Below are positions 12,885-16,559 of a stretch of 64,000 bases of DNA, in pieces. Within the stretch, counting starts at the first letter, position 1, and each line of letters starts with the position of its first letter. The notes below the pieces were generated by a model. The model was not told the origin of the DNA, searched no databases, and was given only the letters and a program-made list of their open reading frames with translations. Origin of the DNA: Streptomyces sp. NBC_00442 (GTDB taxonomy: Bacteria > Actinomycetota > Actinomycetes > Streptomycetales > Streptomycetaceae); contig NZ_CP107918.1 in assembly GCF_036014195.1 (NCBI RefSeq), positions 930,001 to 994,000 on the forward strand, in the 5' to 3' direction. Made by a program: the position numbers and the translations under genes.

Positions 12885-13132
12885 TTGAACTACAACAAGG
12901 AACTCTCCGCATCGAAGGTCCCAGACATCCTCATCAATTCGAAAATCCCTGACATCTTCAAGGACTATATTCTCCGCAACAACTTCGTGGGCGATGAGCT
13001 GCTGGAGTCAACAAGCCTTATGGTGCCAATATCCGTGAGGCAGACGCGGTTCCGGGTACTGTCGCTCACACGCCGTAGGCATCTCGGCTGCCACGGACCC
13101 GTGCAGAGGCCCGAACCTAGAACACGGCCTAG
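12885..13132 (+). pseudogene. lower-GC coding scrap cut by the first insertion sequence
   Basis: From a TTG at 12885 the frame reads NYNKELSASKVPDILINSKI and then PDIFKDYILRNNFVGDELLE, rich in Lys, Asn and Ile unlike its neighbours, before the sense is lost near 13040. It has no recognised domain. The unusual composition suggests DNA acquired from a lower-GC source. The frame runs into the insertion sequence at 13133. Confidence 0.3.
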
Positions 13133-13187
13133 TAGTGCTTTGTTAGGTGTCCTTGTCGTGTCGGGGCTCTGGTAGTTCGCTGGCTGT

Positions 13188-14396
13188 ATGAGGGCTGGGG
13201 AGCTTGCGGCGGTACGGATGCGGCTGGAGGAGTTCGCGTCCGAGGTGTTCGCGCCCTTGGTGCGGCGGGATCAGCGCGAGAAGGGTGCCTTGTACCTGCG
13301 GGGGCTGCTGCTGGACGGCCGCAGGAAGTCGATGCAGCCGATGGCGGAACGCCTCGGTGTCGATCACCAGCAGTTGCAGCAGTTCATGACGTCCTCGACG
13401 TGGGCGGTCCAGGACGTGCAGTCCCGGCTGGCATGGCGGGCGGTGGCGTCGGTGCGGCCGCAGGTGTGGGTGGTGGACGACACCGGTTTCCCCAAGGACG
13501 GCCGTTGTTCGCCCGGGGTGGCCCGGCAGTACTCCGGCACTCTGGGCAAGGTCGGCAACTGCCAGATCGGCGTCAGCGTTCATGCCGCGTCCGATACCGC
13601 CTCGTGTCCGTTGTCCTGGCGGCTGTTCCTTCCCGCCCCCTGGGACGGGCCCGAGGCCGCGGCACGCCGGCGGGCCTGCCGGATACCCGAGGCCGAACAC
13701 CACCGGCCCAAGTGGCAGCTCGCCCTGGACATGCTCGACGAACTCGCCGCCACCGGTCTGCGGCCCGCTGTGCTGGTCGCGGACACCGGCTACGGCGCCA
13801 ACGCCGACTTCCGCCGCGGCCTGGAAGACCGCGGCCTGGCCTACGTCCTGCAGGCCAAGGGCGAGATGACCGCCCATGGCGAACAGGCCGCACCCCACCA
13901 GCCGGCCTACGGCGGTCTGGGACCTCGGCCGCTGCCCCGCTACCGCACCAGCCCGTGCTCCCTTCGCGAGCACGCCCTGACCGCGGGCCGCGACAGCGGC
14001 CGGACCGTGTCCTGGCGCAAGGGCTCGAAGGCAGCGATGAGTTCACACTTCGTGTTCCTGCGGGTGAGGCTCGCCGGGCGCCGCCCCAAGCCCGCCGACG
14101 ACGGAACGATCCCATTGGTCTGGCTGATCGCCCAGTGGCCCGGGGGCGAGAGCGAGCCGGTGAAGTACTGGATCTCGAACCTGCCCGCCGGCATGCCCGC
14201 CAAAGACCTCGTTCGCCTGGCGAAAGCCCGCTGGCGGATCGAGCACGACTACCGGGAACTGAAGACCGCCCTGGGCCTGGACCACTTCGAAGGCCGCTCG
14301 TTCACCGGCTGGCACCGCCACGTCACCCTCGTCACCGCCGCCCACCTGTTCCTGACCGAACAGCGGACCAGCCCAAAAGCCCCTGCCAGGGCCTGA
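13188..14396 (+). CDS. IS701-family transposase, copy 1 (zero-frame product, -1 frameshift extension likely)
   Basis: The zero-frame product has 402 residues and matches IS701-type DDE transposases: VVDDTGFPKDG holds the first Asp, LVADTGYGANADFRRGL the second, and WRIEHDYRELKTALGLDHFEGR the Glu region. All look intact. The zero frame stops at TGA 14394-14396. The -1 frame continues with GLTLYQALDLLQHIIATWTG and CPTCRQPTWQP to a TAA at 14500. A slippery heptamer and hairpin sit exactly where a -1 shift would join the frames, giving a 437-residue product. The start ATG is at 13188, 55 bp from the element end. It differs from copy 2 at residue 21 (Glu here, Gln there). Confidence 0.9.
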   Translation: MRAGELAAVRMRLEEFASEVFAPLVRRDQREKGALYLRGLLLDGRRKSMQPMAERLGVDHQQLQQFMTSSTWAVQDVQSRLAWRAVASVRPQVWVVDDTGFPKDGRCSPGVARQYSGTLGKVGNCQIGVSVHAASDTASCPLSWRLFLPAPWDGPEAAARRRACRIPEAEHHRPKWQLALDMLDELAATGLRPAVLVADTGYGANADFRRGLEDRGLAYVLQAKGEMTAHGEQAAPHQPAYGGLGPRPLPRYRTSPCSLREHALTAGRDSGRTVSWRKGSKAAMSSHFVFLRVRLAGRRPKPADDGTIPLVWLIAQWPGGESEPVKYWISNLPAGMPAKDLVRLAKARWRIEHDYRELKTALGLDHFEGRSFTGWHRHVTLVTAAHLFLTEQRTSPKAPARA

Positions 14397-14414
14397 CCCT
14401 CTACCAGGCCCTGG
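14372..14414 (+). promoter_or_regulatory. candidate -1 programmed frameshift signal, copy 1
   Basis: The heptamer CCCAAAA at 14372-14378 is in the X XXY YYZ phase (C CCA AAA; Ser395-Pro396-Lys397). A 7-nt spacer follows, then a hairpin whose 10-bp arms CCAGGGCCTG (14386-14395) and CAGGCCCTGG (14405-14414) pair perfectly around a 9-nt loop. The zero-frame stop lies at the arm-loop boundary. Confidence 0.75.
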
Positions 14415-14514
14415 ACCTCCTTCAACACATCATCGCCACCTGGACCGGCACATGCCCCACCTGCCGACAACCCACCTGGCAGCCCTACGACACCACCTAA
14501 CAAAGCACTACTAG

Positions 14515-14600
14515 GCCGTGTCTGACAAATGATCAGGCTGCGGTGTCGCGGAGCCACAGGACGAGCGAGACGGAGCTATGCGCTCCCAGGCCGCATCCGC
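14515..14600. mobile_element. probable terminal fragment of a different insertion sequence
   Basis: The sequence GCCGTGTCTGACAAATGATC directly right of copy 1 resembles, from memory, the outer ends of Streptomyces IS elements with TGTCTGACAAA termini. No transposase frame accompanies it. The assignment is tentative. Confidence 0.35.
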
Positions 14601-14625
14601 CAACTCACCACGACCAGCCACAAGA

Positions 14626-15024
14626 TCAAGTATGAGTCCCAGCGGCATGGGCGTGGTCCACGACTTCAGCGAAGTAGGGCCAGCCGTCTACTTCGAGGTT
14701 CTGCACCGATGGCCGGGTGTCCAGAGCGGGCGCCGCGGCGTCGAGCAGGCGCCGAACCGTTCCCGGCTCGTAGAGATTGAGCCAGGCGCGGTCCGGGAGG
14801 CGCACGACGGTGCCCGCCTCGCAGTACGAGTTCGAAACGATTCTGTCCGTGCCCGGGGCAAAGACCAAGGCCAATCGGCGTCGAACGCCTTGCGCCGACA
14901 CCTCCGGGAAGAGAGAAAGTGTCAGCCGGCAGTCGGCGTAGTCCGGTCTCACCCGCTGCCGGACCGTCCAACACCAGACGGCTTCGTTGACCACGAGGTG
15001 GCGGACGCGTCGATCATTCCCCAT
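14626..15024 (-). CDS. conserved-looking hypothetical protein, cargo between the two IS copies
   Basis: A 132-residue frame starting at ATG 15024. The sequence contains RHLVVNEAVWCWTVRQR, RRLALVFAPGTDRIVSN and RLPDRAWLNLYEPGTVRRLL and has the codon position bias of a real Streptomyces gene. No signal peptide or membrane segment is seen and I do not recognise the family. No Shine-Dalgarno is visible upstream. It is the only plausible gene carried between the inverted elements, so it is the candidate passenger. Confidence 0.6.
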   Translation of the reverse strand: MGNDRRVRHLVVNEAVWCWTVRQRVRPDYADCRLTLSLFPEVSAQGVRRRLALVFAPGTDRIVSNSYCEAGTVVRLPDRAWLNLYEPGTVRRLLDAAAPALDTRPSVQNLEVDGWPYFAEVVDHAHAAGTHT

Positions 15025-15083
15025 CGAGTCAGCGTAGATCGTTGGGCTGGAGGAAAGGCATCTTTTCTTCGCAGGCCCCTACT

Positions 15084-15180
15084 TCTGCCGCGGTGCCGTC
15101 GGTTGCCGACTCCCCCTCGTTCTCGGCTCCGCCAGGACAGGCCGGAACCGAGGCCAACCAGATCCGCCGGACAGGCCCTA
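15084..15180 (-). repeat. internally deleted copy of a dispersed MITE-like repeat
   Basis: It matches parts of the element at 55699-55924 on the opposite strand: the inner block around CCGACTCCCCCTCGTTCTCG and the terminal block GGCCAACCAGATCCGCCGG. The middle and the other end are missing. IS copy 2 is inserted directly at its outer end. Confidence 0.8.
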
Positions 15181-15277
15181 GTAGTGCTTTGTTAGGTGGT
15201 GTCGTAGGGCTGCCAGGTGGGTTGTCGGCAGGTGGGGCATGTGCCGGTCCAGGTGGCGATGATGTGTTGAAGGAGGT

Positions 15278-15320
15278 CCAGGGCCTGGTAGAGGGTCAGG
15301 CCCTGGCAGGGGCTTTTGGG
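15278..15320 (-). promoter_or_regulatory. candidate -1 programmed frameshift signal, copy 2
   Basis: Mirror image of the copy 1 signal: the heptamer is at 15314-15320 on the minus strand, followed by the 7-nt spacer and the 10-bp perfect stem. Confidence 0.75.
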
Positions 15321-16504
15321 CTGGTCCGCTGTTCGGTCAGGAACAGGTGGGCGGCGGTGACGAGGGTGACGTGGCGGTGCCAGCCGGTGAACGAGCGGCC
15401 TTCGAAGTGGTCCAGGCCCAGGGCGGTCTTCAGTTCCCGGTAGTCGTGCTCGATCCGCCAGCGGGCTTTCGCCAGGCGAACGAGGTCTTTGGCGGGCATG
15501 CCGGCGGGCAGGTTCGAGATCCAGTACTTCACCGGCTCGCTCTCGCCCCCGGGCCACTGGGCGATCAGCCAGACCAATGGGATCGTTCCGTCGTCGGCGG
15601 GCTTGGGGCGGCGCCCGGCGAGCCTCACCCGCAGGAACACGAAGTGTGAACTCATCGCTGCCTTCGAGCCCTTGCGCCAGGACACGGTCCGGCCGCTGTC
15701 GCGGCCCGCGGTCAGGGCGTGCTCGCGAAGGGAGCACGGGCTGGTGCGGTAGCGGGGCAGCGGCCGAGGTCCCAGACCGCCGTAGGCCGGCTGGTGGGGT
15801 GCGGCCTGTTCGCCATGGGCGGTCATCTCGCCCTTGGCCTGCAGGACGTAGGCCAGGCCGCGGTCTTCCAGGCCGCGGCGGAAGTCGGCGTTGGCGCCGT
15901 AGCCGGTGTCCGCGACCAGCACAGCGGGCCGCAGACCGGTGGCGGCGAGTTCGTCGAGCATGTCCAGGGCGAGCTGCCACTTGGGCCGGTGGTGTTCGGC
16001 CTCGGGTATCCGGCAGGCCCGCCGGCGTGCCGCGGCCTCGGGCCCGTCCCAGGGGGCGGGAAGGAACAGCCGCCAGGACAACGGACACGAGGCGGTATCG
16101 GACGCGGCATGAACGCTGACGCCGATCTGGCAGTTGCCGACCTTGCCCAGAGTGCCGGAGTACTGCCGGGCCACCCCGGGCGAACAACGGCCGTCCTTGG
16201 GGAAACCGGTGTCGTCCACCACCCACACCTGCGGCCGCACCGACGCCACCGCCCGCCATGCCAGCCGGGACTGCACGTCCTGGACCGCCCACGTCGAGGA
16301 CGTCATGAACTGCTGCAACTGCTGGTGATCGACACCGAGGCGTTCCGCCATCGGCTGCATCGACTTCCTGCGGCCGTCCAGCAGCAGCCCCCGCAGGTAC
16401 AAGGCACCCTTCTCGCGCTGATCCCGCCGCACCAAGGGCGCGAACACCTGGGACGCGAACTCCTCCAGCCGCATCCGTACCGCCGCAAGCTCCCCAGCCC
16501 TCAT
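15296..16504 (-). CDS. IS701-family transposase, copy 2 (zero-frame product, -1 frameshift extension likely)
   Basis: The 402-residue product equals copy 1 except Gln for Glu at residue 21 (EEFASQVFAPL). The DDE motifs VVDDTGFPKDG and LVADTGYGANAD are intact. As in copy 1, the -1 frame continues to a TAA at 15192 and would add 40 residues ending in CPTCRQPTWQPYDTT. That the same frameshift architecture is preserved in both copies argues against a random sequencing error. Because the two copies are nearly identical, they cannot serve as independent evolutionary evidence. Confidence 0.9.
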   Translation of the reverse strand: MRAGELAAVRMRLEEFASQVFAPLVRRDQREKGALYLRGLLLDGRRKSMQPMAERLGVDHQQLQQFMTSSTWAVQDVQSRLAWRAVASVRPQVWVVDDTGFPKDGRCSPGVARQYSGTLGKVGNCQIGVSVHAASDTASCPLSWRLFLPAPWDGPEAAARRRACRIPEAEHHRPKWQLALDMLDELAATGLRPAVLVADTGYGANADFRRGLEDRGLAYVLQAKGEMTAHGEQAAPHQPAYGGLGPRPLPRYRTSPCSLREHALTAGRDSGRTVSWRKGSKAAMSSHFVFLRVRLAGRRPKPADDGTIPLVWLIAQWPGGESEPVKYWISNLPAGMPAKDLVRLAKARWRIEHDYRELKTALGLDHFEGRSFTGWHRHVTLVTAAHLFLTEQRTSPKAPARA

Positions 16505-16559
16505 ACAGCCAGCGAACTACCAGAGCCCCGACACGACAAGGACACCTAACAAAGCACTA

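Follow-up and report, generated by a model that had tools for sequence, protein, structure and literature searches.

In the insertion sequences IS1 and IS3, the product of a ribosomal frameshift serves as the transposase. Recoding of transposases has been named for IS1, IS3, IS5 and IS630 (PMC5009743), and the first 300,000 of the 475,107 characters of that text do not name IS701. The paper 'IS4 family goes genomic' (PMC2266710), in the portion at hand, treats frameshifting as a character that can define IS families, its absence marking IS4, and assigns to the IS701 family a 4-bp target duplication and an R-(3)-E-(6)-K signature without tyrosine; the same portion holds nothing on frameshifting for IS701. 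No description of recoding in IS701 elements was found in the open-licence literature, as represented by titles, the beginnings of abstracts and passages of PMC2266710, PMC8944449, PMC9569102 and PMC7371123, which agrees with the preliminary description of the present locus, where no established case was known.

Here we describe a large actinobacterial subgroup of the IS701 family in which comparison of sequences points to a programmed -1 ribosomal frameshift site that would append a CxxC-containing tail to a complete DDE transposase, a reading to which we assign a probability of roughly 0.9. Cells probably make the short enzyme plus a rarer long one.

The element in Streptomyces sp. NBC_00442

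The window, that is, the whole stretch of 64,000 nucleotides that was analysed, corresponds to C1:930001-994000 in the 7.73-Mb genome of Streptomyces sp. NBC_00442. It contains two copies of an IS701-family element (copy 1 is 1.4 kb long), whose features are collected in Table 1. The two copies are mutually inverted with about 670 bp between them (14511-15181), and such a pair could promote inversion or hairpin formation of this interval.

Table 1. Features of the two element copies, in window positions
Feature	Positions	Strand	Remarks
IS701-family element, copy 1	13133..14510	+	ends TAGTGCTTTGTTAGGTG / CACCTAACAAAGCACTA; CTAG flanks at 13129-13132 and 14511-14514
Zero-frame transposase ORF, copy 1	13188..14396	+	402 aa, complete DDE transposase (Pfam, NCBIfam, AlphaFold2, Foldseek)
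Slippery heptamer C_CCA_AAA, copy 1	14372..14378	+	direction -1
-1 frame tail, copy 1	14378..14500	+	40 codons + TAA; SPCQGLTLYQALDLLQHIIATWTGTCPTCRQPTWQPYDTT
10-bp hairpin, copy 1	14386..14414	+	candidate stimulator in the window's own clade
Zero-frame stop TGA, copy 1	14394..14396	+	five codons beyond AAA
IS701-family element, copy 2	15182..16559	-	
Zero-frame transposase ORF, copy 2	15296..16504	-	
Slippery heptamer, copy 2	15314..15320	-	
-1 frame tail, copy 2	15192..15314	-	
Hairpin, copy 2	15278..15306	-	

The coordinates bear out the layout given in the preliminary description. CCCAAAA stands in X_XXY_YYZ phase (zero-frame CCA at 14373-75, AAA at 14376-78) and is followed by a 7-nt spacer (14379-14385) and by a perfect 10-bp stem (14386-14395 / 14405-14414) with a 9-nt loop, the first arm of which is overlapped by the zero-frame TGA; the -1 frame then runs for 40 codons to a TAA (14498-14500) within the right inverted repeat. 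The same layout had been claimed for copy 2, and the signal there (15278-15320, minus strand) is indeed the same as that of copy 1 at 43 of 43 nt.

Two further full, near-identical copies are present in the genome, at C1:687191 (+) and C1:3308181 (-). All four full copies contain CCCAAAA, and all four are flanked at both ends by CTAG, a 4-bp target duplication. The arrangement is present in all of these near-identical copies, so its carrier is a recently active element. Among the 112 relatives introduced below, equal 4-bp flanks were found in 56 of the 66 with both ends recognised. CTAG flanks 75 of 91 recognised right ends and 58 of 74 recognised left ends in the same set, indicating insertion into CTAG. 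The genome also has two IS701-like genes without a recognised tail (C1:885527-886669 and C1:3918579-3919634; L164 and L165), at about 33-35% identity.

The zero-frame protein

The ORF of copy 1 ends with CCA AAA GCC CCT GCC AGG GCC TGA. Its product matches the Pfam families DDE_5 (E 2.3e-85) and DDE_Tnp_1 (E 3.5e-15) and the NCBIfam model NF033540 for IS701 (399.7 bits, cutoff 150), with the entire profile (1-363 of 363) lying on residues 13-393. The IS701 signature R348-(3)-E352-(6)-K359 is invariant and lacks the tyrosine, the place of the Y of YREK being taken by A345, which is invariant in alignment A1 and nearly so in A2. With the 4-bp duplication and the tyrosine-less signature, the window elements share both of the IS701 traits given in the available portion of PMC2266710. 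An AlphaFold2 model from 43 sequences has a mean pLDDT of 90.8, its last helix at 372-394 and values below 50 at residues 397-402, and the top Foldseek match of this model is the Tn5 transposase (E 2.3e-13, TM 0.60 by query length). From the profile span, the model and the Foldseek match, the untailed protein looks like a complete catalytic unit, with the heptamer at its natural end.

Exactly 402 aa is the length of 60 of the 120 listed homologues (of 7,997) of the zero-frame protein, the NCBI IS701 model ends short of the tail, and six plasmid records of the subgroup, in a gene table that describes itself as incomplete, have only one annotated CDS, in the zero frame. DDE_Tnp_1 is moreover the Pfam name under which GeneTack (PMC3711429) lists computational -1 and +1 transposase clusters; the main text of that paper, as far as at hand, contains no IS701, CCCAAAA, DDE_5 or PF13546, and some of its DDE_Tnp_1 clusters could include elements of the present kind.

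Conservation of the heptamer

DNA matches to the C-terminal region occur in 324 of 392 genomes of the same genus, many of them weak. Loci were gathered through this C-terminal match, through the core protein alone, from one viral contig and from plasmids. Of 249 loci with a protein match, 74 were dropped as not full-length or containing a stop and 18 as less than 45% identical, leaving 157 full-length, stop-free loci that are at least 45% identical. A pattern finds the tail in 151 of these, repeats included, and they reduce at about 95% identity (k-mer containment) to 112 non-redundant relatives with 48-100% protein identity to the query. The named hosts are Streptomyces, Kitasatospora, Micromonospora, Salinispora, Saccharopolyspora, Nonomuraea, Nocardia, Kribbella, Arthrobacter, Lentzea, Pseudonocardia and Protofrankia, together with plasmids of Rhodococcus. 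Viral contigs yielded a single locus (L069), with a -1 tail and CCCAAAA, and phages gave no DNA match.

The preliminary description had proposed aligning relatives to see whether their tails lie in frame or shifted, and had made its case depend on a conserved heptamer. In all 151 intact tailed loci the tail is in frame -1, with exact CCCAAAA in 147; in the non-redundant set the figures are 112 of 112 and 108 of 112. Because the C-terminal DNA query itself contains the heptamer, the loci found through the core protein alone were recounted apart (86 loci, 64 non-redundant), with the tail in -1 in 64 of 64 and CCCAAAA in 60 of 64. The six full-length loci in which the pattern finds no tail all belong to this subset. 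By eye, L191 and L044 (the same place as L169) show CCCAAAA and a -1 tail; in L047, L217 and L252 the zero frame is intact and the tail is absent, CCCAAAA being retained in L217.

The constraint on the heptamer acts on nucleotides. Its Lys codon is AAA in all 108 rows that bear a Lys, without a third-position change on the tree of the 112 cores, whereas six other conserved Lys columns have AAG in 61-110 of 112 rows and 2-25 third-position changes, the least-changing of these control columns being fixed on AAG, the usual codon. At the Pro position 110 of 112 rows have CCA, compared with at most 7 CCA and 13-32 changes in eight other conserved Pro columns. A C precedes the Pro codon in all 112 rows and follows 13 different codons (L168 being placed by its tail spacing), and the base just 3' of the heptamer is G in 110 of 112. 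As background, elsewhere in the same ORFs AAA makes up 17.5% of Lys codons, CCA 5.4% of Pro codons and C 45% of third bases. No second in-phase CCCAAAA occurs in the 112 ORFs, despite 178 other Pro-Lys dipeptides. Genome-wide, CCCAAAA occurs 95 times on the two strands of the 7.73 Mb, and the reversed control 194 times.

Four intact -1-tailed relatives are without CCCAAAA (L190 CCCAAGA, L215 CCCAGAA, L256 CCCTCCA and L168 CCAACGA), and these may be decaying or using another site. L168, which is 49.6% identical, has CGAAAACCCC just upstream, a possible alternative slip site. Among the 49 copies that fall short of full length or contain a stop, 5 have another heptamer before the -1 tail (CCCAAAG twice, CCCCAAA, CCCGAAA and CCCAAGA). 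The zero-frame stop is at the same place in 84 of the 112 relatives (81 TGA, 3 TAA) and elsewhere in 28.

The tail in the -1 frame

Several residues of the tail are nearly invariant (L in 112/112, Y in 111/111, Q in 110/111, C in 110/111 and C in 108/110; also W and G). Over 35 tail columns read in frame -1, changes at codon positions 1, 2 and 3 average 8.8, 7.7 and 13.8, the corresponding values for the core being 8.6, 7.1 and 19.7. A stop falls within 33 codons in 112 of 112 relatives in the zero frame, in 3 of 112 in frame -1 and in 3 of 112 in frame +1; since frame +1 is equally open, openness proves nothing by itself, and the case for the tail rests on the substitution pattern. Judged by that pattern, the tail evolves as protein in the -1 frame.

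There are exceptions. Three of the 112 tails (L071, L090 and L195) end or change before the second Cys, and L136 has a stop inside the tail. With the tail-less L047, L217 and L252, these broken tails imply that a tail-less enzyme may sometimes work, or that the copies are dead. L192, from Microbispora, has two codons fewer between the heptamer and the tail core, and the -1 frame is kept.

A zinc knuckle (CCHC) has the pattern C-x2-C-x4-H-x4-C. The preliminary description had taken the tail for one, and this assignment is not supported: the tail has a single CxxC and no zf-CCHC match in Pfam, where its lone match is zf-RING_4 at E 0.019, below the cutoff of that family. Folded alone, the tail is modelled with a helix at 10-25 (mean pLDDT 66.6, pTM 0.32), values too weak to use.

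To look for in-frame versions of the tail, two frame-joined queries were run against 5.77 billion proteins; the searches need shared 5-residue words, so that divergent in-frame tails could escape. One query gave 2 matches from 2 candidates and the other 3 from 5, and all five in-frame-tailed predicted proteins are N-terminally truncated or frame-damaged. Neither these proteins nor the 112 non-redundant relatives include an intact one with the tail in frame. The outcomes that the preliminary description had named as its refutation, in-frame tails in close relatives or an unconserved heptamer, did not come about in this comparison. At the DNA level, L158 and L029 are fragments whose tail has been brought into frame by indels, and L076 is a broken copy with the tail in +1.

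RNA downstream of the heptamer

The preliminary description had put forward heptamer and hairpin together as one complete frameshift signal. The heptamer and a selected tail hold throughout the subgroup; the hairpin is conserved in the window's own clade, 19 elements with at least 70% identity, and not in most other groups. In this clade 10 of 10 pairs form in 16 elements and 9 in the other 3, and the third positions of the stem show 1 change at 7 sites, compared with 38 changes at 16 sites downstream. The loop and spacer are equally conserved, and the stem data therefore support a hairpin without proving it.

When the RNA downstream of the heptamer is compared with other windows of the same gene, the median fraction of windows at least as stable is 0.13 for the 28 elements of the group to which the window's clade belongs, as against 0.98 (42 elements), 0.68 (14), 0.68 (12), 0.94 (10) and 0.92 (5) in other groups and 0.10 in L168 alone, with a median of 0.81 over all groups. 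In five of the six other groups, then, the downstream RNA does not exceed the rest of the gene in stability, and a hairpin as universal stimulator was rejected. The heptamer is the conserved signal, and the hairpin is local.

Rfam gave no match near the heptamer (two sub-threshold matches to one sRNA family lie away from it). Inspection of the substitution counts for an upstream Shine-Dalgarno-like stimulator revealed no run of constrained third positions.

More distant IS701 elements

A second and less tested finding, a tail in frame +1, lies beyond the -1 subgroup. Nineteen plasmid loci were taken from 60 listed of 245 records and chosen for diversity outside Actinomycetota. In all 17 proteobacterial loci (L259-L265, L267-L273, L275-L277; 35-41% identity) the CPxC tail lies in +1, and the frame changes at a run of A6-A9 or C6 that is placed 29-53 residues before the CxxC. 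In 3 of the 17 (L263, L269 and L271) a +1 stop lies between run and tail, so a simple +1 change could not read these copies through. The pattern suggests that recoding of a similar tail arose independently or diverged. The other two plasmid loci, from Deinococcus, are L266, with a CxxC tail in the zero frame, and L274, without a tail; L266 may show the same module in its in-frame state.

Tails in +1 also occur within the actinobacterial phylum (34-39% identity), behind A6 in L172 and behind C6 TTTTCCCCCC in L173 and L174; the tails of the last two are alike and have no CxxC. The pattern finds no tail in fifteen relatives (about 29-37% identity), of which two belong to the Streptomyces genome itself.

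In a midpoint-rooted tree the +1 elements stand apart from the -1 group; the node uniting all -1 elements except L168 has a support of 0.59, and the placement of L168 a support of 0.27. An hhalign comparison of -1 with +1 tails (probability 38.7, E 3.2e-4) gives no more than a suggestion of kinship between them.

We regard it as an even bet that a recoded C-terminal CxxC tail is a widespread means of control in IS701 elements, with actinobacteria using -1 tandem slippage at C_CCA_AAA, and proteobacterial and some other lineages a +1 frame change at A6-A9 or C6 runs. Selection would then keep the frame break rather than any one slip site, and tailed and untailed proteins would be made in a set ratio.

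Mechanism and alternatives

The following sequence of events can be proposed for the -1 subgroup. C_CCA_AAA would be met in phase just past the last predicted helix of a complete Tn5-like DDE enzyme. On a minority of passages, Pro-tRNA and Lys-tRNA would re-pair from CCA/AAA to CCC/AAA, and the ribosome would continue in -1 to give a tailed product of 437 aa alongside the untailed one of 402 aa. More speculatively, the tailed form may be the one competent for transposition or synapsis, or may set the ratio of partners, so that the frameshift would limit transposition. Tn5-like enzymes synapse through C-terminal contacts, which makes an addition at the C-terminus a reasonable point of control here. 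We incline to regard the tailed form as the transposase. The preliminary suggestion that transposition is limited by translation of the tail is plausible.

Other origins of the arrangement have to be weighed against a programmed ribosomal shift. The preliminary description had offered that a one-base deletion in an ancestor made the tail dead, and the tail does lie out of frame behind a zero-frame product that matches the whole IS701 profile without it, in a family where relatives without a recognised tail exist. However, elements at 48-100% identity to the query conserve the tail as a -1 protein and the heptamer in its nucleotides, as would not be expected of a dead remnant, and we give this origin practically no credence. 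It is also very improbable that the tail is translated separately, unfused, through stop-start coupling: the overlap of the zero-frame stop with a -1 Leu codon in 85 of 112 relatives (81 CTG, 3 CTA, 1 TTG) invites the idea, but the other 27 have no such overlap (26 stop at codon 18), and coupling would not conserve a heptamer 14 nt upstream. Transcriptional slippage, favoured for several transposase families in the available part of PMC3711429, could produce the tailed form without a ribosomal shift, and the A6-A9 or C6 runs before the CPxC tails of proteobacterial relatives are in its favour. The actinobacterial run, by contrast, is short, with about four A, and the site keeps a fixed codon phase. 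All 112 relatives have C before the Pro codon, a fixed base that tandem tRNA re-pairing accounts for and polymerase slippage on A4 does not. For the actinobacterial elements we consider slippage of the polymerase very improbable.

A different alternative accepts the frameshift and reverses the roles, with the untailed form as transposase and the tailed form as a regulator, either inhibitor or partner. In its favour, the zero-frame product is by itself a complete DDE enzyme with a confident model, and tail-less copies as well as relatives without a recognised tail exist. On the other side, the one annotated product of L266 of Deinococcus includes a CxxC tail in frame, and IS1 and IS3 offer the analogy of a frameshift product used as transposase. 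Such an exchange of roles is a serious possibility that we nevertheless hold to be on the unlikely side.

If the tailed protein works or regulates, the annotated proteins of the subgroup are incomplete, and functional studies that start from the annotated ORF may be carried out on the wrong product. On the same condition, a kind of recoding in which an already complete DDE enzyme gains a C-terminal module would become testable in harmless laboratory Streptomyces. AAA and CCA are minor codons in these genes, and their near-absolute C_CCA_AAA would offer a natural slippery site for studies of frameshifting in actinobacteria.

Comparison with known recoded transposases

Among the systems described, IS5 and IS630 likewise obtain their transposase by recoding but are different families from IS701, in so far as the part of PMC5009743 at hand describes them. 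The arrangement is closest to that of IS1 and IS3, with which it shares an X_XXY_YYZ heptamer, the -1 direction and a low-cost control of the transposase. The heptamers differ: 72% of those in IS1 and IS3 are A_AAA_AAG or A_AAA_AAA, whereas the IS701 subgroup nearly always has C_CCA_AAA (PMC4066793 for IS1 and IS3, in the portion available). In that portion, C_CC.A_AA.A is among the motifs that shift at more than 0.10% in E. coli without stimulators, and C_CC.A_AA.G has the highest value in the same list. The parts that are joined differ as well. In IS1 and IS3 an upstream, generally DNA-binding ORF is fused to a catalytic ORF (PMC5009743, in the part at hand); in the IS701 subgroup the complete catalytic protein is already encoded upstream, and the shift would add a C-terminal tail only.
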